Source: a virus. From it: 64,000 bases of DNA. The DNA lies in the IMG/VR virus record IMGVR_UViG_3300021962_000054, positions 31,796 through 95,795 of that record, one strand, 5' to 3'. The notes beneath the pieces are model-generated. The model saw only the letters and a list, made by a program, of their open reading frames with translations. It searched no databases and was not told the DNA's origin. The position numbers and the translations under genes were made by a program. This document shows, piece by piece, positions 5,472-41,014 of this stretch (within the stretch, counting starts at the first letter, position 1; each line of letters opens with the position of its first letter).

Positions 5472-8015
5472 ATGTCAGACACAGGTATACAAAGTCCGTT
5501 AGGTGTAAACGTTGTTGCATCAACCATCCTAAATGAAGGACTAAGTATCAATCCGGTCGCACAGCGTTTGATCGGAACTAGTCAGACAAATGATACTTAC
5601 ACACCAGGATCAATAATAAACGATACTTGCTTGTCTTGGGCTACACAATCAATACAAGCGGCATATTATTCAAATGGTTTTAGAGACAGTGACGGCTTAT
5701 CACCTACAGAAATCATAGGTGATTTAGTTGGGATTACAAACTATCTCGGTATATTGACTGTAAAAAAAGTTATAAGAGGAGGAATAATTCCTCGCGGTCA
5801 AATTTTAGTGCAAGATATGCCTATTATATTACCTAGCAATCAAATGACGGGATTTGGTGCTAGATTCGTAATCACAGAAATGGGCGATACAGACTGGGCT
5901 AGACAAGACGTATATGGTTTTCCTCCATATAGTGATGACATGGGGAGATATCAATATGTAATTGAAATTAATCCCCAATCTAGTCCGGGAGTGTATCAGA
6001 CAGATTTTACAGTAGTAGGAGCACCCTCAAATGACGTAGGCACTGTGTTTGAATGCACGGTTTCAGGACCATCACTACCGGGCTATACACAAGGTCAAGT
6101 TAGAAGATTGGGATACAGTGTCGGGACAGTAATAGTCTCAAACGGTAGTGGAATAGGTTATGGTATCAACGGTAAAGGACAAGCACTAACTTTAGGATTC
6201 TTTATAGGTAACTTAGTTTCGGGTGACGGTAATACACCGGGTAGTCAATGGCAAGTATATTTTCTTGATCCTGGCCCAGGCGCAGCCGGTAAATGGTGTC
6301 TGGATTATACACCAGATGTAGCTGAATATATGAATTTTACAGACCATACATTTAGATTCCAAGTACCAAATATAACATATTATAATTCTAATATTGATAA
6401 AGATACCTATGATAATTTACTTGCAATGGGACAAAGCAGAATTCCTGCATTATCAAACAGTTTGCCTCCAACATATCTAATCAATGATCCTTCAAACGTT
6501 TGGGGAGGGCAAGCAACAAGCGGATATGCGATATCAGGTAATGTAGGTCAAGGACAAGAAGCAAAGTGGTTTCCCTACGATACTGACAACAATAACTTTT
6601 CTGTCACGCAATGGGGTTTTTTACGTTGCCTAGCATTGCAAGCATGGAACGTATTCAACTGGCAAGGATCAAGCCCGCTAAACGAAGATCCAGAATATAA
6701 AAATTATACTACTCAATTTTTGAATCTAGATGGATTTATAGAACAATCCAATAAAGCATTGATGACATTGCGCAATTCAGTCGAATTTCTTGACGGGACA
6801 TATAGTAATATGAATGATCTTATTACCGGCGATATTACCGGTGTAAGTTTATCTACTCAAGCATTTGGTGAAGATTTGACTAATTTAGGAAAAGCGATAC
6901 CACTATCATCAATCGCTAAGTTTGGTTTGCCTAGCGTGTTGTTACAAACACTGCAACAAAATAATGCATTGACACAACCTGTAATATTGGCTTTACTCAC
7001 AAGCGGGTTGTCGCAAAATGAAATAAATGACATCAGTGCAGGAAATCTTACACCAAGTGTTGATCAAGAGCAAAAAATTTATGGAGCTTTTAGTGTAATA
7101 ACCGGTCAAGATTGTAAAACTATATTGAAAACATTAGGATGTAAAACTAAAGGAATTTTGCAACTCATAGACTTATTGAACGTCAAAAAAATGTTTCCAA
7201 TCAGCTATACTAGTTTGACTGTTCCGGTATATAACACTAGCCCCGGACCTACAAATAGTAAAACCTATTACTTATTATTTGTTGATAGAGAAGTTAATCC
7301 TCAGCTTTTTACAAAGAGAATGAAAGAGATGGTGGGAACGATAGAACCGATAGTAGAACCACCCCCGCCTTTGCCGGATCCTCTCCCTACTCCGGTGATA
7401 GAAGAAATTTTAGAGGTAATCGCAGAACCTCCTATATTATTACCTCCGCCACCGACACCGGATATTCCTATTCCGCCAGCAGTGCAACCACCTCCTCCAC
7501 CACAACCAGTGCCTCCACCTGCTCCAGTCAAACAAGGCGGTGGTGGTTGCGTAGCACTAGAGAGTTTCGTGCCACTGGTAGAAACAGAACAAAAGCACAA
7601 TGGCAGAGAAATAACAAAAGCCTGGATGCTAGAAAGCGGTATGAAGATAAGTCTTGGCACAGAAGAGTTAGAGATAGTAGACGGCAACGTAGTAAAAACA
7701 CTCAACGATTATCAGCCTTGTGTTAGAATTAGCACAAGCGACGGTATAACACTTGTGTGCAGTACAACTGCTCCTATATTGACAAAAGACAAAGGGTTTA
7801 TTCCAGCAACAGAAGTATATGGTAAACGTGTAGCAGTCATGCGTAATGGCGTAACATGGTATGATGAAGTTGTTGGACTAGAAGATGTTGGTATGAAGTT
7901 TGTGCGTGTAATTGACGCAGGTAATAATAGTTTTTGGGCAGGCGAACGTCCTGGATCATTTATACTACACCACAACGTACCAATCAAAGATGGATTCGAC
8001 TACGATAAGAAATAA
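5472..8015 (+). CDS. virion structural protein with proline-rich linker and C-terminal Hint domain
   Basis: This is an 847-residue protein. Residues 1-620 are beta-rich and Gly/Asn/Ser-rich, as in phage appendage proteins. Residues about 635-690 form a Pro-rich linker with runs such as PPPPP. A Hint (intein/hedgehog-type) domain follows: it starts at C693 after GGGG (CVALESFVPL), contains a CSTTAPILTKDKGF segment and ends with H833-H834-N835. Twelve residues follow N835, beginning with Val rather than Cys/Ser/Thr, so splicing is unlikely and self-cleavage is more plausible. Neighbours are a PAAR protein upstream and another structural-type gene 2 nt downstream. The Hint assignment is confident; the autoprocessing role is inference. 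Confidence 0.8.
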   Translation: MSDTGIQSPLGVNVVASTILNEGLSINPVAQRLIGTSQTNDTYTPGSIINDTCLSWATQSIQAAYYSNGFRDSDGLSPTEIIGDLVGITNYLGILTVKKVIRGGIIPRGQILVQDMPIILPSNQMTGFGARFVITEMGDTDWARQDVYGFPPYSDDMGRYQYVIEINPQSSPGVYQTDFTVVGAPSNDVGTVFECTVSGPSLPGYTQGQVRRLGYSVGTVIVSNGSGIGYGINGKGQALTLGFFIGNLVSGDGNTPGSQWQVYFLDPGPGAAGKWCLDYTPDVAEYMNFTDHTFRFQVPNITYYNSNIDKDTYDNLLAMGQSRIPALSNSLPPTYLINDPSNVWGGQATSGYAISGNVGQGQEAKWFPYDTDNNNFSVTQWGFLRCLALQAWNVFNWQGSSPLNEDPEYKNYTTQFLNLDGFIEQSNKALMTLRNSVEFLDGTYSNMNDLITGDITGVSLSTQAFGEDLTNLGKAIPLSSIAKFGLPSVLLQTLQQNNALTQPVILALLTSGLSQNEINDISAGNLTPSVDQEQKIYGAFSVITGQDCKTILKTLGCKTKGILQLIDLLNVKKMFPISYTSLTVPVYNTSPGPTNSKTYYLLFVDREVNPQLFTKRMKEMVGTIEPIVEPPPPLPDPLPTPVIEEILEVIAEPPILLPPPPTPDIPIPPAVQPPPPPQPVPPPAPVKQGGGGCVALESFVPLVETEQKHNGREITKAWMLESGMKISLGTEELEIVDGNVVKTLNDYQPCVRISTSDGITLVCSTTAPILTKDKGFIPATEVYGKRVAVMRNGVTWYDEVVGLEDVGMKFVRVIDAGNNSFWAGERPGSFILHHNVPIKDGFDYDKK

Positions 8016-11985: not shown

Positions 11986-12558
11986 ATGAAAACAGTCGGA
12001 GATAAGTTAGGTTCATTCGCAGTAACTGGTGTAAAGCCAGGTAAGTTGACCCCAGATGACGCTTTTGAAACAATTACGGATAAGAGTTTTGAAGGCAAGT
12101 GGAAGGTAATCGTTTACTATCCAAAAGATTTCACATTCGTCTGCCCAACTGAGATCGTTGCTTATGACAAACTAAACAAGGATTTCGCTGACCGTGACGC
12201 TGTATTATTGATCGGTTCAACTGACAATGAATTCTGTAAGTTAGCATGGCGTTCAGCACATGAAGATTTGAAGAAGACCAATAGCTGGATGTTTGCTGAC
12301 ACACAACGTGATTCATACAGCGACAGCGATGGTTGGAAGAATCTAAGCCTAGTCGATCAGTTAGGTGCATTCTATGCACCAGCCGGCGCAGCATTACGTG
12401 CCACTTTCATCGTTGATCCAGAGAACGTCATTCAGCACGTTACTGTCAACAACTTGAATGTTGGTCGTAGCCCAGAAGAAACATTGCGTGTATTAGACGC
12501 TTGCCAGACAGGCGAACTATGCCCATGTAATCGCACTATTGGTGGCGAGACACTATAA
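11986..12558 (+). CDS. ahpC: alkyl hydroperoxide reductase C (2-Cys peroxiredoxin)
   Basis: This 190-residue peroxiredoxin reduces hydrogen peroxide and organic peroxides. The peroxidatic Cys is C53 in DFTFVCPTE; the conserved Pro/Thr context is present. Resolving cysteines C179 and C181 sit in GELCPCN near the C-terminus, the arrangement seen in AhpC proteins that work with AhpD rather than AhpF. A good AGGAG site precedes the ATG. The last base overlaps the ahpD ATG (TAATG), so the pair is coupled. Confidence 0.95.
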   Translation: MKTVGDKLGSFAVTGVKPGKLTPDDAFETITDKSFEGKWKVIVYYPKDFTFVCPTEIVAYDKLNKDFADRDAVLLIGSTDNEFCKLAWRSAHEDLKKTNSWMFADTQRDSYSDSDGWKNLSLVDQLGAFYAPAGAALRATFIVDPENVIQHVTVNNLNVGRSPEETLRVLDACQTGELCPCNRTIGGETL

Positions 12559-13085
12559 TGCGCGGTTGGGTAGAAATTATCAAGGATAGCATTCCTGATC
12601 ATAGCAAAGATATCAGATTGAATCTTGATAGTGTTATCAATCGTAGTCTATTGAGTGTAGAAGATACACATGCTTGCGCACTAACAGCAGCACTAGCAGC
12701 CGGCAACGGTGAACTAGCATATGCTATCATGACAAGTGGCGAACTAGATAATTTCACAGCCGAGATGGAAGCAGCGAAAACTGCTGCTAGTCTTATGGGC
12801 ATGAATAATGTCTGGTATCCATTTGTTGAAATGTGTAACGATCCTGAACTAAAGGGACTACCTGCAGGACTACGCATGAATGCTTATGCTACACACGGTG
12901 GAGTATCAAAGAAAAAGTTTGAACTCTATGCATTAGTAGCAAGTGCTATCGGTAAGTGTCATTTCTGTGTAAAGAATCACTATGATGTATTACGCAAAGA
13001 AGGCATGACTGTACAAGAGTTGCATCACGCTGGTAAGATCGCTAGTGTTATCAATTCGATTGGAAAGGTCGCCCCACCAGTCTAA
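12558..13085 (+). CDS. ahpD: AhpD-type alkylhydroperoxidase, reductant for AhpC
   Basis: This 175-residue AhpD-family protein regenerates reduced AhpC. The complete catalytic set is visible: E122, C134 and C137 (KCHFCVKNH) and H141, with the same spacing as mycobacterial AhpD (Glu, +12 Cys, CxxC, +4 His). The helical core (ALTAALAAGNGELAYAIM) matches the family. It is coupled to ahpC by a one-base overlap. AhpD proteins are normally fed by dihydrolipoamide systems of the host; no such partner gene is in this window. Confidence 0.92.
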   Translation: MRGWVEIIKDSIPDHSKDIRLNLDSVINRSLLSVEDTHACALTAALAAGNGELAYAIMTSGELDNFTAEMEAAKTAASLMGMNNVWYPFVEMCNDPELKGLPAGLRMNAYATHGGVSKKKFELYALVASAIGKCHFCVKNHYDVLRKEGMTVQELHHAGKIASVINSIGKVAPPV

Positions 13086-14398: not shown

Positions 14399-14474
14399 GC
14401 CCCGGTAGCTCAGTTGGTAGAGCAGCGGATTAGTAACCCGCAGGTCGGAAGTTCAACCCTTCTCTGGGGCACCA
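14399..14474 (+). tRNA. tRNA-Thr, anticodon AGU
   Basis: A full cloverleaf: acceptor GCCCCGG/CTGGGGC, D-arm GCTC/GAGC, T-arm GGAAG/CTTCT, encoded CCA. The anticodon loop TTAGTAA gives AGT, the Thr ACU reader. The last anticodon-stem pair (A31-C39) is mismatched. A34 is unusual for a bacterial Thr tRNA. Confidence 0.8.
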
Positions 14475-14481
14475 TTTTTTT

Positions 14482-15225
14482 ATGAAGTATACTTTAGGAC
14501 CTATAGACAGACAAAAAGAATTAGATTTTCATCTTATTCCTTTTAGGAATAAAGGCTTGACTGTGCCAGGCATTTTAGGTGGATACACTAAGTTGGGTGT
14601 ATACTTTTCTGGTGGGTTAGATTCTACGATTACATTATGTTTGATACTTGATGAATTGCGTAAATCAAGAAAAATAGAAGAAGTTTCAGTAACATGTTTT
14701 ACTGTAGTCAAAACATCTGGCTCTACTTATTATGCTAGTAGGATGCTAGAAAAGGTCAGAAAAGTATTTGATTGTGATATAAATCATATCACTAACTTAG
14801 ATAATCCTGATATTGATAAAACACCGACACCCTTGTCGTTTTCAACGATAGCAGAGTTGGTTGGTCAATATAAAGATACATTATTTTTTACAGGACTGAT
14901 GTCTTATCCTGATAGCAAAGAAAAAGATTTTGTATATAAAGAGTCGATGAGCAATATTCCTAATATTGGATTGCGGAATTACAAGGTGGTACAACCTTTG
15001 ACTCATTTATATAAATATCATGTAGTTGATTTGTACTATCAAATGAATCTTGATAGCCTCATACCTTACACTCATACATGTACAAAACAATCCATAGGTA
15101 CTTGTAATATGTGTACGGGATGCGAAGAAAGACAGTGGGCGTTTGATGTTCTCAGTAAAACTGACCCTGAACCTATAATGCCTGACATCGAGGATCTGTC
15201 AAATAACGGCAGTTGGAAATTTTAG
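14482..15225 (+). CDS. QueC-like PP-loop ATPase
   Basis: This 247-residue protein has the PP-loop SGGLDST at 43-49 and a zinc-type cluster C200, C208, C211, C214 (CTKQSIGTCNMCTGC), the arrangement of QueC, which makes 7-cyano-7-deazaguanine (preQ0). No QueD, QueE or FolE partner and no DpdA-type insertion enzyme is visible in this window. It could serve 7-deazaguanine modification of DNA or tRNA, or be a relative with another substrate. It sits between the Thr and Glu tRNA genes. Confidence 0.7.
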   Translation: MKYTLGPIDRQKELDFHLIPFRNKGLTVPGILGGYTKLGVYFSGGLDSTITLCLILDELRKSRKIEEVSVTCFTVVKTSGSTYYASRMLEKVRKVFDCDINHITNLDNPDIDKTPTPLSFSTIAELVGQYKDTLFFTGLMSYPDSKEKDFVYKESMSNIPNIGLRNYKVVQPLTHLYKYHVVDLYYQMNLDSLIPYTHTCTKQSIGTCNMCTGCEERQWAFDVLSKTDPEPIMPDIEDLSNNGSWKF

Positions 15226-31965: not shown

Positions 31966-34900
31966 ATGAGTCAATTATCTGGTAAGATTTGGAGCAGGCT
32001 AACAGTTAGTTTAGCTGTCGCTTCAATAGCTCTAGTGTCACTCATGGGTAATCCCGTGAATGCGCAAGAGACGGCTGCCAGTGCTGCAGGTGTTGTTCAA
32101 TCTGAACAGGGTGCAGCTAGCGGCCTATCAGTTGAAGTGCTACACGTTCCATCAGGAACAGTCAGCAAATCAACTACTGATGCAAACGGTAGATATGTTC
32201 TACGCGGTTTGCGTGTAGGTGGTCCTTATAAGGTCACTGTCAAAGGTGAAGGGTACAAAACTGTAGTATTAGAAAATCAGTTTTTAGCCCTCGGAGATAA
32301 CGGTAACTTGAACCTCGTTACAGAATCAAGTGATCTAGCAGAAGTAGTAGTGTTAGCCGGTCGTGCTGATCTAGTATTTGATAGTTCACGCACTGGTACA
32401 GGTACTACAGTTAGCAACGAACAGATCGTAGCACTCCCAACAATCAGTCGTAATATTCAGGATCTCGTAAGAACAGATCCTCGTATCGCTCAGACTGATA
32501 AAGAGCGTGGTGAAATTTCAGCAGGTGGACAAAACACTCGCTTCAACAACATTCGTATTGACGGTGTCAGCACCAACGATGCGTTTGGTCTTGAAGCAAA
32601 CAATCTACCAACTGATCGTCAACCAATTCCGTTGGATGCAATCGAATCAATCAATATCGCATTGACAGATTTCGACGTTGCTCGTTCGTCATTCACTGGC
32701 GCAAGCATCGACGCAATCACTAAGTCAGGTACAAACAAGTGGAGGGGAACTTCATACTTCCTCACACGCGATGCTGACTGGGTCGGAAAGCGCAATGGTC
32801 AAAAGTTCAACGGTTTCGATAAAGAAGAAACAGTTGGCTTGACTATCGGCGGTCCAATCATTGAAGACAAGTTGTTCGTCTTTGCTTCTTATGAGAAGTT
32901 TGAACGCGCAGCATTGGCTCCAACATTTGGTCCAACTGGTTCTGATAGCGCACAGATCGTAACAGGTATTTCACAAGCACAACTTGATGAAGCCGCAGCA
33001 ATCGCTAAAGATGTATGGGGTTTCGACGCTGGTTCATTCAATCCTCCCGGTGCTCTAAACACTGAGATTGAAGATATCATGGTCAAGTTTGACTGGAACA
33101 TCAATGACAGTCATCGTGCTGCTCTACGTGTCAATCGCACAGAGCAAAGCGATCCATACTTACGTAATATCGGACCACGTGATCTTTCATTGAGTGGTTA
33201 CTGGCACATCAATAACAAGAAGTTTGAAAGTGCGGTTGCTCATTTGTATAGCAACTGGACAGACAATCTTTCAACTGAGATGTCAGTCAGTGTCGCCAAT
33301 CAAAGTTCACTTTGGGATATCGGCGATCCTCGTCCAACAGTTCGCATCTGCTTGAACAGTTCATCCTGTTCTGGTGCTGATAGCATTTGGTTGGGTAGCG
33401 AGAGATTCCGTCATGTGAACATTCTTGAAACTGAAACATTGAACGCATTCGCAGCAGCAACTTATGTTGTTGGTGATCATGCTATCAAGTTCGGTGCTGA
33501 ATACGAAACAAGAGATATCTTCAATCTCTTCGGACGTGATCAGTTTGGTTACTATGAGTTCTATGGCTTGAATAACTTCCGTTCAGGTACACCAGCAGTT
33601 TACAACCTTTTCTATCCAGTCAATGGTGATGTAAACAGCCGTGCTGCTGCTTGGACATTAGAGAATGCTGCCGTGTTCTTACAGGATACTTGGACAATCA
33701 GCCCAACGTTGAATGTCACAGCAGGTGTTCGTGTTGATATGCCAATCGTGGGAGATACTCCTCCATACAATGCTGTTGCCAGTGACTTCTTTGGTCTACG
33801 CAACGACAGCACTCCAGATGGTAACTATCTCATTCAACCACGTGTTGGATTCAACTGGCAACCAGAATGGTCTGATCGTAAGACACAGGTTCGTGGTGGC
33901 GTTGGCTTGTTCCAAGGTATCGCCGCTAACGTGTGGTTGAGCAATCCATTCAGCAACAATAACGTGACTCAGGGAGCAATCTTTGATAATCGTGCTGCTC
34001 AGAATGGCATCGTGTTCAGTCCAGATCCAAACAATCAGCCAGGAGTTCGTCCACCACCAGGACTTGGTGGTAACGTTGACTTCTTGAGTCCAGACCTACA
34101 ACTCCCAGCAGCATATAAAGTTTCTTTCGCTGTTGATCATGAGTTGCCATGGTACGGATTGGTTGCAAGTTTTGAGACTGTTCTAACTGAAGTCGATGAA
34201 GGCATTCGCTATGTGAAGCCAAACTTAGGCGCACCAACAGGAGTTGCTCCAGATGGTCGTCCATTGTATTGGTCAACTGTGAATCCTGCTACCTTCACTG
34301 GTTCAAGTTCACAGCGTACAGCCAACACAAATCGTGACTTTGGTGTAGATTCAACGATTGCTCTACCAACATCGAAAGGTGATGGTAAGCAGTTCACTGT
34401 TTCATTACAAGGTCCTCAGAATGAGAACTGGTACTGGAACGTTGGATACACCTACACTGAAGCAACTGAAGTCAATACATTGACATCTTCACAAGCCGCA
34501 TCAAATTGGAACAACGCAGTTCGTGTTGATACCAACGCCGATGTTGCCGAGAAGTCAGTGTATGCCATCAAAGATCGTTTCACGGCAACTGTAAGTTATC
34601 GTAAGAAGTTCTTTGCTGACTTAGTAAGCTCAGTTGGTGTGTTCTATGAAGGTCGCATTGGTCGCCCATACACTTTCACTTTCGTCAATGACGCAAACGG
34701 CGATGGTCGTGTAAACGATCCATTCTTTGTGCCAAACAGAGGTGATGTTGTATTCAAGGGCGGTGCTGCTATGGAGCAAGCATTCTTTGATTATCTTGCT
34801 TCAAACGGTGAACTCGCTAAGTATCAAGGTGGTATTGCTGAAGTAAACAACAACAATGCTCCTTGGGTTCATAACGTTGACATTCGCCTCTCACAAGAAT

Positions 34901-35157
34901 TGCCAGTCTTTGGTGATGTGAAGGGTGAAGTATGGCTCGACATCATGAACGTTGGCAACATGATCAATAAGGATTGGGGTGTGATTGAAGAAGTCGGATT
35001 CCCAGGTGCCTTTGGTGTTGCTCGTTTCGCTGGTGTTGACGCTTCAGGAAAGTATGTCTACGATTTCCGTGCTTCGGATCTACGTGACTTGACTCTCCGC
35101 GACAACCGTGGTGAATCACGCTGGGCGATGCAGCTCGGTGTCAAGTTCAAGTTCTAA
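31966..35157 (+). CDS. TonB-dependent outer-membrane receptor (Oar-like)
   Basis: This is a 1063-residue protein. Signal peptide 1-33 (hydrophobic core SLAVASIALVSLMG, cleavage near VNA). Residues about 45-115 form a CarboxypepD_reg-like domain (TDANGRYVLRGL). About 135-260 form the plug (NIRIDGVSTND, SFTGASIDAITKSG). The rest is a 22-strand-type beta barrel ending in aromatic-terminated MQLGVKFKF, the BAM recognition end. It is intact, with AGGAG before the ATG and a terminator after. Its G+C and codon use look higher than those of neighbours. TonB receptors import siderophores, vitamins or glycans; here a role in nutrient uptake or receptor masking is inferred. Confidence 0.9.
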   Translation: MSQLSGKIWSRLTVSLAVASIALVSLMGNPVNAQETAASAAGVVQSEQGAASGLSVEVLHVPSGTVSKSTTDANGRYVLRGLRVGGPYKVTVKGEGYKTVVLENQFLALGDNGNLNLVTESSDLAEVVVLAGRADLVFDSSRTGTGTTVSNEQIVALPTISRNIQDLVRTDPRIAQTDKERGEISAGGQNTRFNNIRIDGVSTNDAFGLEANNLPTDRQPIPLDAIESINIALTDFDVARSSFTGASIDAITKSGTNKWRGTSYFLTRDADWVGKRNGQKFNGFDKEETVGLTIGGPIIEDKLFVFASYEKFERAALAPTFGPTGSDSAQIVTGISQAQLDEAAAIAKDVWGFDAGSFNPPGALNTEIEDIMVKFDWNINDSHRAALRVNRTEQSDPYLRNIGPRDLSLSGYWHINNKKFESAVAHLYSNWTDNLSTEMSVSVANQSSLWDIGDPRPTVRICLNSSSCSGADSIWLGSERFRHVNILETETLNAFAAATYVVGDHAIKFGAEYETRDIFNLFGRDQFGYYEFYGLNNFRSGTPAVYNLFYPVNGDVNSRAAAWTLENAAVFLQDTWTISPTLNVTAGVRVDMPIVGDTPPYNAVASDFFGLRNDSTPDGNYLIQPRVGFNWQPEWSDRKTQVRGGVGLFQGIAANVWLSNPFSNNNVTQGAIFDNRAAQNGIVFSPDPNNQPGVRPPPGLGGNVDFLSPDLQLPAAYKVSFAVDHELPWYGLVASFETVLTEVDEGIRYVKPNLGAPTGVAPDGRPLYWSTVNPATFTGSSSQRTANTNRDFGVDSTIALPTSKGDGKQFTVSLQGPQNENWYWNVGYTYTEATEVNTLTSSQAASNWNNAVRVDTNADVAEKSVYAIKDRFTATVSYRKKFFADLVSSVGVFYEGRIGRPYTFTFVNDANGDGRVNDPFFVPNRGDVVFKGGAAMEQAFFDYLASNGELAKYQGGIAEVNNNNAPWVHNVDIRLSQELPVFGDVKGEVWLDIMNVGNMINKDWGVIEEVGFPGAFGVARFAGVDASGKYVYDFRASDLRDLTLRDNRGESRWAMQLGVKFKF

Positions 35158-35315
35158 TGAATTTGAAATATGACAACAAGAAGGGGAGCAAAAACTCCCC
35201 TTCTTTTTTGGATATAGAAAGTCCGTTATGGCTACTATTGTATTGTCTAATATCATGCACTATTGGTATAGGCTTGATATTGACTATGTTATTTTTTGTG
35301 TCAAACTTTGCGTAA
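35157..35315 (+). CDS. possible small membrane protein (52 aa)
   Basis: The ATG overlaps the receptor stop (TAATG). A polar N-terminus is followed by a transmembrane segment (LWLLLYCLISCTIGIGLILTMLFFV). The terminator hairpin lies within codons 8-17, so the ORF may be fortuitous or poorly transcribed. Confidence 0.35.
   Translation: MNLKYDNKKGSKNSPSFLDIESPLWLLLYCLISCTIGIGLILTMLFFVSNFA
35178..35209 (+). terminator. rho-independent terminator after the TonB receptor
   Basis: An 11-bp stem AAGAAGGGGAG / CTCCCCTTCTT with a CAAAAA loop and TTTT tail. Confidence 0.9.
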
Positions 35316-35385
35316 AATATACAACTATATTCATTCAGTAATATAGTATTACATTATTGTTACATTCAACTAGGTAAATATTCTT

Positions 35386-35481
35386 ATGTCCCGAGAGGTT
35401 CATATCTAACATTCCTATAGGTCTTTGACTTATGTGTATGTTATTTGGATCGAACGGGACATCATGCCATTTATTTGGCAT
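35386..35481 (+). promoter_or_regulatory. structured 5' leader of the porin gene
   Basis: ATGTCCCG (35386-35393) pairs with CGGGACAT (35455-35462), and a hairpin ATGCCA/TGGCAT (35464-35481) ends just before the AAGGAG site. The arrangement suggests control of porin translation or mRNA stability; no known riboswitch class is recognised. Confidence 0.45.
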
Positions 35482-35503
35482 AACAACAAGGAGATAAAAT
35501 TAT

Positions 35504-36481
35504 ATGCGTAAAGCATTTTTGACATTAGTTATGTTAGGATCACTTTCTGCAACTGCTATTGCTGGTGAACTAAATCTAAATGGTGGCATCGGCTATCGTT
35601 TTGACAGTGTAGAACTAGCAGCAGGACCAAAATCAGAAAAAGATCGTCTTGGAGCAGAGTTGGTATTATCAAACAAGGTCAACGACAAGATCAATGCTGT
35701 CGTAGGTCTACGTACTGGTAGTTTCAACAGCCAATACGATGATATGGGTCCAGGTGGTCAGTTGAAGGATGTGAATCTACACCTAGCATATGTTGAATAC
35801 GCTGCTATGGATAATGTCAAGGTAACACTTGGCAAGATGCATCAACCTTGGGCAAGTTCACCAAGTCTATTTTTTGACCGTGACGTAAAGCCAGAAGGCG
35901 TGGCAGTAAGTTGGAAGAGTGAATCAGGATTGTTTGCTAATGCTTCAAGTCTAAAACTTGTAGAAGGCGGCATCAACGATGATTCTAAGGTACAGAGCCT
36001 ACAAGTCGGCTTGCATAAGAATCTAGCAGGACTTCACTTCAAGGGCGCAGTAGCACTACATGATCATAAGATCAAGCACGTTGCTATCGGCGGCATCAGT
36101 GATGCTAAATTACAGCAAGCATTTGCTTCAGTAGGAACAAAATTCGCTGGTAAGCCAGTAGTATTGTTCGCAGACTACATGAAGAACGACAAGGCAAGTG
36201 CAGAGGACACAGCCCTAGCATATGGTATCAAGTTTGGACATGCTAAGAAACCACAAGAGTGGGATCTAAGCGTATTCCATCAAGATGTAGAAGCCAATGC
36301 TCAGTTTGGTTTGTGGAATGATTCTGACTTTGCTCTATCACAAGGTGGTCACAAAGGCTATGGTCTAGTCGGTGGCTATGTTGTAGCAGACGGTTGGAAA
36401 GTAAACGCCAAGTATTTCGATGTTGAAATCGGAAATGCTGATGTAAAGCGTCTACAACTAGACTTGAATTACATGTTCTAA
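35504..36481 (+). CDS. outer-membrane porin
   Basis: 325 residues with a clear signal peptide (MRKAFLTLVMLGSLSATAIA), then alternating amphipathic beta strands (LNLNGGIGYRF, VYVEYAAM-type, GYGLVGGYVVADGWKVNAKYF) and the C-terminal aromatic LDLNYMF, as in outer-membrane porins. It is probably a diffusion channel. A terminator follows. Porins are very rare on phage genomes; the classic example is the lambdoid nmpC/lc type, which is unrelated in sequence as far as I can tell. Confidence 0.8.
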   Translation: MRKAFLTLVMLGSLSATAIAGELNLNGGIGYRFDSVELAAGPKSEKDRLGAELVLSNKVNDKINAVVGLRTGSFNSQYDDMGPGGQLKDVNLHLAYVEYAAMDNVKVTLGKMHQPWASSPSLFFDRDVKPEGVAVSWKSESGLFANASSLKLVEGGINDDSKVQSLQVGLHKNLAGLHFKGAVALHDHKIKHVAIGGISDAKLQQAFASVGTKFAGKPVVLFADYMKNDKASAEDTALAYGIKFGHAKKPQEWDLSVFHQDVEANAQFGLWNDSDFALSQGGHKGYGLVGGYVVADGWKVNAKYFDVEIGNADVKRLQLDLNYMF

Positions 36482-36967: not shown

Positions 36968-37459
36968 ATGCTTTACATTTCTTATCGTGGTATTTACGAC
37001 GGCACCAATTATGAAGACGCTAACACTCCTAGCCAGTTAGGCAAAGCTATGGGCATGGGCTTTTCATGCATGATCGATATATGGAAAGTGGACGACAAGT
37101 TCTATCTAGGTAATGATCAACCATTGACTGAAGTCACAGAGAAATACATACAGGGCAATCGTTGGTGGATCAATGCTAGAAACACTGCAATGCAAAATTG
37201 GTTACCTACACAGAATCAGAAACTATATCCTAACTGGTTCTACTTCACTACTCCTACTCCTCCTCCGCCATATGTCACAGCAAGTAACGGTAAATTGATC
37301 ACGCCGGGCACCGTGCCTGTCAACAATGATAGCGTTATCTTTTTACCTGAGATTGATGATAAGGGATTGTTTAGCACAGTGCATCTACGCAATTATGGAG
37401 TAATCAGCACTTATCTAACGTTTATAAGACGCATTAGGCAAGAGGGTGCTAGGTACTAG
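36968..37459 (+). CDS. glycerophosphodiester phosphodiesterase-like protein
   Basis: A 163-residue short GDPD-like fold: ISYRGIYDG (HRG-type start with His replaced by Tyr), a GKAMGMGFSCMIDIWKVDDKFYLGNDQPL block equivalent to the EIDVW...HD segment, with His replaced by Asn. The altered catalytic positions make hydrolase activity uncertain. It convergently overlaps the GNAT gene by 4 nt. Confidence 0.55.
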   Translation: MLYISYRGIYDGTNYEDANTPSQLGKAMGMGFSCMIDIWKVDDKFYLGNDQPLTEVTEKYIQGNRWWINARNTAMQNWLPTQNQKLYPNWFYFTTPTPPPPYVTASNGKLITPGTVPVNNDSVIFLPEIDDKGLFSTVHLRNYGVISTYLTFIRRIRQEGARY

Positions 37460-37896
37460 AGATGCCTTACACAATAAGCATTTTTACCTAATTCACTATC
37501 TTCCCAATCACTAGCTAACTTGAATCCAGCTTTATTATAAGTTGACCAGCTATTATATTTGGGATAGCTCCATATATATCCTGCACCTTTACTAGTAGCA
37601 AAATCGATAGATTCTTTCAGTAAGACTGTGCCTATACCTTTATTTCTAAAGTCTGGATTTACATATAAGCCCCTGCTGCGATATCCCCCGTCGCTACATG
37701 GATGAACGCTATTCACTCCTACTATCATATTATCGATCTTATAAGCAAAAAAAGTAGCCGGTTTTACCATGTTATCTAAACTATATCCGCCTAGGAAACA
37801 CATAGCACTTGTTTCTGTGATCTCTGATATCCTATCAGGCCACAAGTCGTGTTTCCAAATTGGGAAAATCTTAGAAAAATCTGCTTGAATGACCAT
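37456..37896 (-). CDS. GNAT-family N-acetyltransferase
   Basis: This 146-residue protein has motif A RGLYVNPDFRNKGIGTVLLKESIDFA containing the acetyl-CoA loop (R-N-K-G-I-G), followed by AGYIWSYPKYNSWSTYNKAGF, typical of GNAT enzymes. It runs on the minus strand between plus-strand genes. The substrate is unknown. Confidence 0.85.
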   Translation of the reverse strand: MVIQADFSKIFPIWKHDLWPDRISEITETSAMCFLGGYSLDNMVKPATFFAYKIDNMIVGVNSVHPCSDGGYRSRGLYVNPDFRNKGIGTVLLKESIDFATSKGAGYIWSYPKYNSWSTYNKAGFKLASDWEDSELGKNAYCVRHL

Positions 37897-37922: not shown

Positions 37923-37930
37923 CATAAATA
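37923..37930 (+). promoter_or_regulatory. late promoter-like box (CATAAATA)
   Basis: CATAAATA 27 nt before the subtilisin-like gene; it differs from the consensus by one base. Confidence 0.45.
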
Positions 37931-37957: not shown

Positions 37958-39820
37958 ATGAAGTATTTAGTAGATTTTAAGAACACCGCAACAGATGCAG
38001 AAATCCAGAGCTATTTGTCAGCACATGGCTGCACAGTCCTAAAAGAGTGGGACAATTTTGATAAAGTTTTTCTCGTAGAGGTCGCATCAGCACCACCAGT
38101 AACTGATCTCACCGAACACGTTGTTCTTGAAGAGGGAGTCGCAATCACCCCACATTATGACATCAATACACACTGGGGCCGTCATGACGATCCAAATTCA
38201 GAGAGTATCACAGTAGATACTGGTAATGAACAAGACTGGTGGAAAAATTACAGTTACGCACAACCTGTATTTGATGAGCCAACTCTTACTTTGAAAAGAT
38301 TTGGAGATCATATTAGCGTTTATGTAATGGATAGCGGTTTCACTGATAACTCTAACGGCGAATTCGCAGGTGTAAATGTAGTCAATCTTTACAGTATATT
38401 AGGCACTGATTTTGCTGATTGCAACGGTCACGGAACAGCTATGTCAAGTTTGATATCAGGACGTACATGCGGAATCACTAACGCGACTATCAAAGTAGTA
38501 AAAATATTTGATGATAACACTCCTACATTACAGAGTCAGTTTCTTGATGCATTAGATGCTATCATCGCCGATCATGATCCTAGCAAGTTCGGCGTAGTAA
38601 ATTGTAGCTGGACTATTCCAAAAAATGCTTGGATCGAATCTAAATTCCGTACTTTGACTCAAAGCGGAGTTTATGTCGTTGCAGCTGCCGGTAACACAGG
38701 CGTTGAGATTGAAGACGTTACACCTGCTAGCATGGTAGAAGCTCTTACAGTCGGTGCTTATAATAAAGATTTAGAACCTTGCTCATTTTCTGCTTATAGC
38801 GATCTAAATACTTCTGATCAGCTCGGAACAACTAATCACGGCGAATTAGATGGTTGGGCACCCGGGGATAGAATTTGGTCATATGGTACAGTGTATGGTT
38901 GGATTCAGGGAACATCCCCTGCCGCAGCTATCACCTCAGCTATAGTAGTAAATAATTTACATCGATATTGCGGTAACACTGGATCAAGACTTCCATACAC
39001 TCATGACTGGAATTTGGATAGCGCAAATCCTAATACAAGTCAAGTGCTAGCATTTTCAAGAAAAGATTTACTTGACCTTAGCGATCCTAAATATGCTAAC
39101 TCTGTAAATAAGATAGCAACTATCAACGATACTGCAATCAGTCCTACAGTTCCCCCAACTGATGAGTTGAACTACGGTATGCCAGCTGGGCAAAAAGATT
39201 TATTAGGATATGTAGTAGATCCACTAACAACTAAATCAATAGTTGATATAACTCCATTACCATCTTTCTGTCAATTATTACCTAGCGCAGGTTTATATGC
39301 ATCTCCTTCTTTAGAAGATGGACCACAAGACGGTGAAGTTTATAAACAATACGTATGGCAATTCACCAAGACAAATTTTGAAGATGTTTCAGAGACAGTG
39401 ACAGTCAATATATACGTAACTAAGGAAGATTTTCAACCTAGCGATTTACCTGATGATCACGTTATCAATATAACGCTAGCAGCAAACTGCTGGAGAAATT
39501 TCTATGTTCCTAGCTGCACAATTAGCACTTATTTTGCAAATTGCTTGAACAATTGCCCCAACAGTCAGTGCTGCTATCACATTTACAAGTCAATGGCATT
39601 CTGTGAATGCACTAACGCTTTCAGTGATCGACGACTAAAATCTAATATTGTAAGAATAGGAACACATAGCTTAGGAATAGGCTTATATGAATACGATATA
39701 TTTGGTAAAAGAACTACAGGCGTGATGGCAGAAGAATTATTAGAAGTCATGCCTCAAGCAGTATCAGTTCATTCTAGCGGATACTATATGGTCGACTATG
39801 GTATGATAGGGATGAAATGA
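37958..39820 (+). CDS. subtilisin-like serine protease fused to an S74 self-cleaving chaperone domain
   Basis: This is a 620-residue protein. N-terminal 1-90 resembles a propeptide. The S8 protease triad is D125 (YVMDSG), H158 (GHGTAMSS) and S320 (GTSPAAA), with an oxyanion Asn in AAAGNTG. A Cys-rich segment (about 515-552) precedes a C-terminal peptidase S74/intramolecular chaperone domain starting S556-D557 (SDRRLKSN) and ending GYYMVDYGMIGMK. S74 domains normally trimerise fibre or tailspike proteins and cleave themselves off. There is no signal peptide. This implies a virion-attached protease, an inference. Confidence 0.88.
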   Translation: MKYLVDFKNTATDAEIQSYLSAHGCTVLKEWDNFDKVFLVEVASAPPVTDLTEHVVLEEGVAITPHYDINTHWGRHDDPNSESITVDTGNEQDWWKNYSYAQPVFDEPTLTLKRFGDHISVYVMDSGFTDNSNGEFAGVNVVNLYSILGTDFADCNGHGTAMSSLISGRTCGITNATIKVVKIFDDNTPTLQSQFLDALDAIIADHDPSKFGVVNCSWTIPKNAWIESKFRTLTQSGVYVVAAAGNTGVEIEDVTPASMVEALTVGAYNKDLEPCSFSAYSDLNTSDQLGTTNHGELDGWAPGDRIWSYGTVYGWIQGTSPAAAITSAIVVNNLHRYCGNTGSRLPYTHDWNLDSANPNTSQVLAFSRKDLLDLSDPKYANSVNKIATINDTAISPTVPPTDELNYGMPAGQKDLLGYVVDPLTTKSIVDITPLPSFCQLLPSAGLYASPSLEDGPQDGEVYKQYVWQFTKTNFEDVSETVTVNIYVTKEDFQPSDLPDDHVINITLAANCWRNFYVPSCTISTYFANCLNNCPNSQCCYHIYKSMAFCECTNAFSDRRLKSNIVRIGTHSLGIGLYEYDIFGKRTTGVMAEELLEVMPQAVSVHSSGYYMVDYGMIGMK

Positions 39821-40737
39821 TCGATTGGACTAATTTTAGCGTATCAAATAATACACTAAATTTTGACTGCAAAAGAAAAAATAAAGAGCCGCATCTAACA
39901 GGTTTAGAAGCGGCTTTTTATAATATCAATTATATCACAGAAAATTATCCTGCGCCGTATACCTTATATTTGAGCGGCGGCGTCGATAGCCAAGCTATGC
40001 TATATGCCTGGGTAAAATCAAAAGTGCCGTTCAACACATTTTCAGGAATCTATAATTTTGATAGTAACTGGAATGATCTCGCGACATGTAATTTGTTCGC
40101 AAAAATATTAGATGTGAAAATTTCCTATCATCATTTTGACCTAATAAATTTTCTTGAAACAGAACATCATGATTACGCCATAAAATATAAAACAGGAAGT
40201 CCCCAATTTACTACATTTATAAAAATGGCGCAAATGACAGAAAAAGGCACAGTGATTTTTTCAGGAGAATGTAGACCTTTTTTTACATTTGTAAGAGATG
40301 ATCCTCCCCTAGCTATTCCAGACCTAAACAGTATGGGATTATATTATTACGGAAGCATAGATAAACGACCAATCGTGCCGTGGTTTTTTATCGAAACAGA
40401 AACGATAACATATTCTTGGATTTATGATCATAATATCACACACAAACCTGTGATAGATTCTTTTGAAGTACGACAGCAAAATAAAGAAATGAAATTAGGA
40501 TACAAGCGAAAGATTGACATCTATCATCAAAATGATTATCCTGTTATTCCGCAAGATAATAAACAAAACGGTTTCGAAAAAATCAAAGACTATTATGACA
40601 CACAGAATAAAAAACCTGTTACCCTACAAGATAGATTAGCAAAAGGATTTTTCAGATCCGATAGAAATTTTGATTTATTATTCCGAAATAAATATGAGGC
40701 TAAACTCGTAAAATATAAATACAACATAAACTGGTGA
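39817..40737 (+). CDS. PP-loop ATPase (asparagine synthase/ATP pyrophosphatase-like)
   Basis: This 306-residue protein has the PP-loop LSGGVDSQ at 52-59. The rest does not show the zinc cluster of QueC or a glutaminase domain. It overlaps the protease gene by 4 nt. It probably adenylates a substrate; the target is unknown. A second, different PP-loop protein is at 14.5 kb. Confidence 0.7.
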   Translation: MIDWTNFSVSNNTLNFDCKRKNKEPHLTGLEAAFYNINYITENYPAPYTLYLSGGVDSQAMLYAWVKSKVPFNTFSGIYNFDSNWNDLATCNLFAKILDVKISYHHFDLINFLETEHHDYAIKYKTGSPQFTTFIKMAQMTEKGTVIFSGECRPFFTFVRDDPPLAIPDLNSMGLYYYGSIDKRPIVPWFFIETETITYSWIYDHNITHKPVIDSFEVRQQNKEMKLGYKRKIDIYHQNDYPVIPQDNKQNGFEKIKDYYDTQNKKPVTLQDRLAKGFFRSDRNFDLLFRNKYEAKLVKYKYNINW

Positions 40738-40741
40738 GTAC

Positions 40742-41014
40742 ATGTTTGATAAATTGAAAAATAAAATGGCAGCTCTGCAAAAAATTGCAGAAGAAAAAGC
40801 TGTAGAAAAATTATTAGTAGATAAAGTTCATCCAGACGTCCAGCTAGAACGTATTTCTATCTGTCATTCATGTGAAAAGTTTTACAAACCTACAGCACAA
40901 TGCAGGTTGTGCGGATGCTTTATGAACGTAAAAAGCTGGATGCCAGAGCAGGCCTGCCCGATAAAAAAATGGGGACATGCAGAAGTTCATAGTAATGGTA
41001 TAATACCAGATTGA
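40742..41014 (+). CDS. zinc-ribbon-like phage protein
   Basis: 90 residues with helical N-terminus and a metal site C41-x2-C44, C54-x2-C57, C72 (CRLCGCFMNVKSWMPEQACPIKKW), a small zinc protein type common in T4-like marine phages. The stop overlaps the start of the next gene (TTGA). Confidence 0.75.
   Translation: MFDKLKNKMAALQKIAEEKAVEKLLVDKVHPDVQLERISICHSCEKFYKPTAQCRLCGCFMNVKSWMPEQACPIKKWGHAEVHSNGIIPD

Follow-up and report, generated by a model that had tools for sequence, protein, structure and literature searches.

The main result of this analysis, and the one that goes beyond the coordinates given by an initial annotation of the same DNA, is a conserved pair of phage genes whose purpose as a pair is putative. 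Judged from gene order, the conserved unit is a subtilisin-like protease and a co-transcribed PP-loop enzyme. The example described here lies in a 64,000-nucleotide stretch of viral DNA (referred to as the window), in which the protease ends in a short S74 domain. The explanation we favor, to which we assign a probability of about 0.5 as a whole, is that the protease is a self-activating extracytoplasmic zymogen and that the PP-loop enzyme is an amide-forming partner whose target is the protease itself, the processed end of the protease, or the substrate on which it acts. The weakest step in this explanation is that the two gene products act together. The protease may be a subtilase that joins known parts in a new combination, and the two-gene system may itself be new.

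Domain structure of the protease and its genomic setting

The window is part of a 95,795-bp virus record in IMG/VR (IMGVR_UViG_3300021962_000054). A T4-type portal, a head maturation protease, and a major head protein are encoded in the part of the record that lies outside the window. Because the closest matches of the head protein (66–68% identity) are those of jumbo phages, among them Vibrio phage 2.275.O, Pseudomonas PA5oct, and Sinorhizobium Phosso, the record probably represents part of the genome of a jumbo T4-like phage.

Several other genes in the window deserve mention. Positions 31966–36481 encode a TonB-dependent receptor (1063 amino acids) and a porin-like protein, each followed by a terminator-like hairpin; the GC content of the receptor gene is ~45% compared with 32–44% nearby, and its nearest bacterial relatives found are from Lysobacter and Stenotrophomonas (~44%). 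Twenty-six tRNA genes are interspersed between positions 14399 and 36949 with metabolic genes, many of which appear by eye to be 2OG-oxygenase-like. Peroxiredoxin-like and AhpD-like genes (assigned by eye) lie in tandem at 11986–13085, and an 847-amino acid proline-rich protein is encoded at 5472–8015, the C-terminus of which looks Hint-like by eye and has no Pfam match. Far from the protease, at 14482–15225, lies another PP-loop gene, which matches a QueC model weakly.

Table 1 Features of the protease locus (window coordinates)
Feature	Position	Strand	Basis
S8-S74 protease ORF	37958-39820	+	Single uninterrupted ORF, 620 amino acids
Prodomain, pro-subtilisin (I9-like) type, ~residues 1-66	37958..38155	+	AlphaFold, VIA-align to 3wiv
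S8 catalytic domain, ~residues 111-396; D125, H158, S320, oxyanion N246	38288..39145	+	Pfam, invariant columns, fold
Beta-strand domain, probably Ig-like, residues 403-488	39164..39421	+	Strands in model; Ig-like by eye
Cysteine module, 8 Cys in residues 504-555	39467..39622	+	Sequence; low model confidence
Short S74 domain, residues 556-620; predicted cleavage between S556 and D557, dyad S556/K561	39623..39817	+	Pfam, identity to L004, lengths
Partner PP-loop ATPase, asparagine-synthetase-like, stand-alone, 306 amino acids, SGGVDSQ motif	39817..40737	+	Motif, model, linkage
Small Cys-rich DUF6171 protein, third gene of apparent operon	40742..41014	+	Pfam DUF6171, E 6.4e-7
GNAT acetyltransferase, divergent neighbor, loosely associated	37456..37896	-	Pfam Acetyltransf_1, E 4.6e-11

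The order of the triad residues, the oxyanion asparagine, the predicted fold, and the profile score place the protein in peptidase family S8. Peptidase_S8 matches residues 118–332 (E 5.1e-14; 52.7 bits versus a cut-off of 21.8). The catalytic residues, whose triad had been numbered correctly by the initial annotation, and the oxyanion asparagine are invariant in an alignment with three distant phage S8 proteases. Among 80 representatives of the family, D125, H158, and N246 are present in all 80 and S320 in 79; the sole exception is a gap. A sequence search of the PDB returned aqualysin-1 and proteinase K as top matches. The AlphaFold monomer, built from 35 aligned rows (mean pLDDT 77.5, pTM 0.66), superimposes through residues 1–396 on a variant of pro-Tk-subtilisin (3wiv) with a VIA-align Z of 34.0 (rmsd 3.4, 341 residues aligned). 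Other pro-subtilisins and PCSK9 rank next, EpiP also appears in the list (Z 30.5, rmsd 3.5, 334 aligned), and Foldseek agrees on the pro-subtilisin fold. The description of the ORF as a subtilisin protease with an S74 tail is thus borne out, since both profiles score above their cut-offs and the triad is invariant. That description did not mention the prodomain, the eight-cysteine module, the overlap with a PP-loop gene, or the fact that S74 lacks its coiled coil.

Confidence in the model varies along the chain. Residues 1–60 of the prodomain are predicted with block pLDDT of 92–97 and are followed by a low-confidence linker (residues 68–81), whereas the beta-strand domain reaches 76–94. Values fall below 50 for residues 499–558, and the cysteine module and the links between domains are poorly modelled. 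The Pfam scan gave no I9, Ig-like, or P-domain match in the protease. Based on its fold, the prodomain is predicted to act as both chaperone and inhibitor of the protease; the protein would then carry an intramolecular chaperone at either end, the subtilisin prodomain at the N-terminus and S74 at the C-terminus. The prodomain, catalytic fold, triad, and oxyanion Asn are the same as those of S8A pro-subtilisins such as pro-Tk-subtilisin, pro-subtilisin E, proteinase K, and aqualysin. The window protease differs from these enzymes in lacking an evident signal peptide, in carrying Ig-like, cysteine, and S74 modules, and in having a PP-loop partner gene.

Relatives of the protease are reached through profile searches; exact-peptide matching is insufficient. 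An exact-peptide search with the whole protease matched a single IMG/VR contig (L004) through its S74 domain, and the same search with the catalytic domain alone found nothing. A PADLOC scan of five window proteins gave only weak matches, to a subtilase model (E 1.6e-6) and a QueC model (E 0.038), both of which are generic, and NCBIfam matches of the protease to mycosin, QhpE, and PatA fell far under cut-off.

Linkage of the protease to a PP-loop gene

The stop codon of the protease overlaps the start codon of the PP-loop gene in the sequence ATGA (39817–39820). To place this arrangement in context, IMG/VR was scanned with S8-domain profiles (80 loci of 126 confirmed). One clade (L095–L138 and L158) comprises proteins of the same build, mostly 500–630 amino acids in length; the rest of L139–L174 are other S8 proteins, many with N-termini that look signal-like by eye. 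No clade member was found among the isolated phages searched.

A first count identified a PP-loop gene in the fetched flank of 29 of 29 loci, 28 drawn from L095–L138 plus the window. Twenty-eight of these genes were recognized by the SGGxDS motif and one (L135), cut at a contig edge, by similarity. Profile HMMs run over all 45 clade loci detected the gene in 43, and in the two loci without it (L130 and L136) the protease lies at a contig end. A third S8-anchored scan, many of whose contigs had already been covered, gave 43 of 43 with 11 loci on contigs marked new. As controls, the profile HMMs detected the partner in none of the 35 other S8 loci and in none of 80 S74 loci (725 kb; the best 80 of at least 518). 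In the reciprocal count, 65 of 71 PP-loop loci had a protease of the clade no more than 5 kb away; among the six misses, the PP-loop gene is itself truncated in four (L225, L236, L237, and L247), and two (L205 and L231) are true misses.

The S8 scan and the partner-anchored scan together yielded 95 ORFs that fall into 80 groups at 90% identity. This set includes loci baited with the PP-loop gene and is therefore complete partly by construction, the unbiased counts being 29/29, 43/45, and 43/43. The nearest PP-loop gene is asparagine-synthetase-like in 66 groups and QueC-like in 14. It overlaps the protease gene or lies within 150 bp of it in 58/80, is 0.7–0.9 kb away in 14/80, mostly with an opposite-strand gene between, and is separated from it by one to four ORFs in the remaining 8/80. 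One 185-kb viral contig (L190, 2432–7625) carries two protease/PP-loop pairs in tandem. By itself, linkage does not show joint function, and it can persist through co-transfer of genes that do not act together.

Other neighbors are less constant. Across 100 loci (29 S8-anchored and 71 PP-loop-anchored, with some contigs in both), DUF6171 homologues occur in 24 and the GNAT acetyltransferase cluster in 34. The 8-mer CATAAATA at 37923–37930, ~27 bases ahead of the start of the protease gene, resembles the consensus of T4 late promoters. Similar sites also precede AhpC-like and lipoprotein-like genes, and none was found before the major capsid gene in L002.

The S74 domain and the location of the protease

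Peptidase_S74 (PF13884) matches residues 556–602 with an E of 1.2e-4 and 22.7 bits, barely above the cut-off of 22. The assignment is secure despite this marginal score because L004 carries an S74 tail with which this stretch shares 78% identity over 64 residues. S74 domains of the endosialidase type cleave themselves at a Ser-Asp site by means of a Ser/Lys dyad. The window protein has such a site at S556 and D557 with a lysine (K561) five residues on, the equivalent in L098 being SDERVK, and is predicted to cleave itself between S556 and D557. With endosialidase-type S74 and KVP40 gp37 it shares the SDxRLK core, the dyad, and the GVMA and VDY motifs. It differs from KVP40 gp37 in being short, lacking a coiled coil, and following a subtilisin rather than a fibre. 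Counting the serine, the window domain ends 65 residues after the cleavage site, whereas that of KVP40 gp37 runs to 101 and has an end that looks coiled-coil-like by eye. By this length comparison, the window protein lacks the C-terminal coiled-coil extension of fibre-type S74, a feature of fibre members that lies outside the Pfam PF13884 model.

Among the 80 groups, S74 is found in two lineages, that of the window and that of L098 with its identical copies. The latter (L098–L100) come from IMG/VR contigs of three other samples, so the fusion did not arise through chimeric assembly. With 39% identity between their S74 domains, the two lineages probably acquired the domain independently. In a tree of 65 columns, the window domain joins L004 (99/72), and L098 sits on a very long branch of unsure placement. 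Inheritance of a single S74 by both lineages was considered and is unlikely, given 78% identity of the window domain to L004 and 39% to L098. From these comparisons, S74 is apparently a late, optional add-on to the protease family that was captured twice. Two other members (L195, 5800–7839; L208, 5878–7923) end in a Hint domain that scores above the Pfam cut-off. As another self-cleaving module at the same end of the protein, Hint counts in favor of self-processing. The protease of L280 ends in a sequence that is Hint-like by eye only.

The initial annotation reasoned that S74 normally finishes fibres and proposed a virion-borne, trimeric protease that degrades host surface proteins. The intact subtilase-S74 fusion on which this interpretation was built stands; the premise that S74 means a fibre does not hold for this lineage. 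Of at least 518 S74 relatives confirmed by a profile scan of IMG/VR, the best 80 were retained. All of these 80 end 62–65 residues after the cleavage serine, and in all 80 the passenger, S74 excluded, is homologous to that of L011, a podoviral protein of the phrog_6121 type. Six scanned carriers matched phrog_6121 ("virion structural protein") with E values no higher than 6.9e-45, and all but one had an additional, weaker match to phrog_4287 ("DNA ejection protein"). Their S74 domains are up to 78% identical to that of the window and of the same length (best 80 of at least 518), but their passenger is unrelated and they reside on small podoviral contigs. The fibre reading as the default for S74 was dropped on this basis. 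An S74 domain alone does not denote a tail fibre, which corrects a common shortcut.

It is unlikely, then, that S74 assembles the protease as a trimer at the tip of a fibre, where it would digest proteins on the host surface at adsorption. Fibres are the setting from which S74 is best known, more distant S74 copies are found on them, long tail fibre proteins of Vibrio phages match the window domain with 30–45% identity, and S8 genes lie near tail genes in Atu_ph07 and Mallos. Against this, the closest relatives (best 80 of at least 518) are not fibres, S74 is limited to two of 80 groups, and collagen-like fibre genes are present elsewhere in the window. PHROG fibre matches are confined to residues 544 onward with no fibre profile outside the S74 region, there is no coiled coil, and the passenger is globular in the AlphaFold model.

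An alternative that we judge similarly improbable is an intracellular protease that serves host takeover or processing of phage proteins, with an S74 tail devoid of function. The window protease has no evident signal peptide, and most of the family lacks a strong hydrophobic run at the N-terminus: of 80 representatives, 67 have 6–7 hydrophobic residues in the most hydrophobic 12-residue segment of the first 35, eight have 8, and one has 9. In several contigs, the cassette lies amid replication genes (PhoH-, gp32-, and ligase-like by eye) rather than structural genes. These observations must be set against the cysteine content of the tails and the repeated fusion to self-processing modules. The segment past the Ig-like region is free of cysteine in 36 of 80 representatives and contains 4, 6, 8, or 10 in the other 44; the count is even in 44 of 44 cysteine-bearing tails, which cover 25 of 25 groups at 50% identity. 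Even counts suggest pairing in disulfides and hence action outside the cytoplasm, although they could also reflect metal sites. Such disulfides would be dispensable for the family as a whole because 36 of 80 representatives lack cysteine there.

Carriers of this S74 lineage are annotated as virion proteins, which makes it plausible that the protease is virion-borne. A distinctly unlikely variant is that the protease is packaged and injected and then works in the cell envelope or the cytoplasm at an early stage of infection. The L011-like passengers (80/80 of the best 80 of at least 518), with their phrog_6121 and weaker phrog_4287 matches, are compatible with this route, as is Rhizobium phage RHph_Y1_10, in which the S74 gene immediately precedes two putative injection proteins. 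However, most family members have no S74, so S74 cannot provide the general route, and the location of the podoviral protein itself comes only from annotation.

Like the window record, the jumbo phages Atu_ph07 and Phosso encode S8 proteases, and the capsid protein of Phosso is 65.8% identical to that of the record. Their S8 proteases (1251 and 1287 amino acids) differ in architecture, that of Atu_ph07 falls outside the clade of the window protease, and no PP-loop gene is annotated within 6 kb of either. According to the portion of the Atu_ph07 report available to us, virion proteins of this phage are encoded in clusters of CDS 31–76, 170–215, and 284–329 (PMC6102473). FDI40_gp329 is the S8 protease of this Agrobacterium phage, and the numbering agrees at tail fibre gp327; the protease thus appears to close the third cluster, an indirect hint at a virion location.

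The PP-loop partner and a possible role for the pair

The partner has the SGGxDS motif and an N-type PP-loop fold. Its AlphaFold model (pLDDT 75.2, pTM 0.79) aligns best with asparagine synthetase (VIA-align Z 12.4, rmsd 4.5, 263 residues aligned), and beta-lactam synthetase (Z 11.7, rmsd 4.8, 233 aligned) and carbapenam synthetase (Z 11.1, rmsd 4.9, 230 aligned) are tied with it or nearly so. We do not classify the protein as an asparagine synthetase because it has only 306 amino acids and its alignment starts at about chain residue 116; it has no N-terminal glutaminase domain. The Pfam Asn_synthase score of the window partner is under threshold (15.6 versus 21), and matches among 11 family members are weak and split (QueC in four, PP-loop in three, and Asn_synthase in three). 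An exact-peptide search for the partner found nothing, and two queries of limited sensitivity against INPHARED phages revealed no relative. One motif pattern, likewise of limited sensitivity, matched 81 stretches in 84,980 bacterial and archaeal genomes, none of which was confirmed.

In the biosynthesis of lasso peptides and cyanobactins, a protease removes the leader and an ATP-using enzyme closes an amide. A comparable peptide-maturation role for the pair is highly unlikely in view of the large C-terminal modules on the protease, and no precursor peptide or recognition element was noticed, despite the resemblance of the partner's fold to asparagine and beta-lactam synthetases, the weak sub-cut-off matches of the protease to PatA/PatG and QhpE, and the presence of EpiP among its fold matches.

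The favored explanation, a self-activating extracytoplasmic zymogen with an amide-forming partner, can be set out as follows. The prodomain would fold and keep the S8 domain inactive until self-processing. Where present, S74 would help the C-terminal end assemble and then cut itself off. Mature protease would most likely be extracytoplasmic, either attached to the virion or set free together with it, and could act on host-surface proteins or phage structural proteins. The amide formed by the PP-loop enzyme would probably be a modification of the substrate, of the protease, or of the end left by processing. It is tempting to extend this explanation to an undescribed two-gene system of aquatic phages, in which a self-activating subtilase is joined to a virus-specific asparagine-synthetase-like or QueC-like PP-loop enzyme whose chemistry adds a cap or a crosslink to the protease or to the substrate after cleavage, while target or delivery is set by whichever module (cysteine, S74, or Hint) occupies an exchangeable C-terminal slot. 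We hold this extension, including the virus-specific nature of the partner, tentatively and at somewhat under even odds.

Phage subtilases have seldom been studied, and we know of none that depends on an ATP-using partner. Literature searches, in which subscription journals were mostly outside coverage and which therefore provide weak evidence, found no paper on a phage subtilisin with S74 or on a virion or tail subtilisin-like protease, and nothing relevant on the pairing of a phage subtilase with a PP-loop, asparagine-synthase, or QueC protein. The accessible text of a paper on the QueC family does not mention subtilisin, protease, peptidase, viral, or "phage genome" (PMC13329287), and that of a paper on jumbo phages does not mention subtilisin, subtilase, or PP-loop (PMC7824862). 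The closest parallels are Cap9 of type IV CBASS and QatC, PP-loop proteins whose genes likewise form a fixed pair with that of a protein partner; the window family includes a QueC-like variant. As far as the available parts of the reports indicate, these systems serve bacterial defence and no protease partner is mentioned, whereas the window pair is viral. Cap9 attaches a deazaguanine to an N-terminal glycine, and a similar activity is proposed for QatC, in the sections available to us (PMC13279940; see also preprint PMC11996544). Protein modification by Cap9 and, as proposed, QatC offers a precedent for the tailoring of proteins by PP-loop enzymes. If the subtilase and its partner work together, a PP-loop enzyme that a search of limited sensitivity did not find in 84,980 prokaryote genomes would represent a protein-tailoring chemistry of phages.
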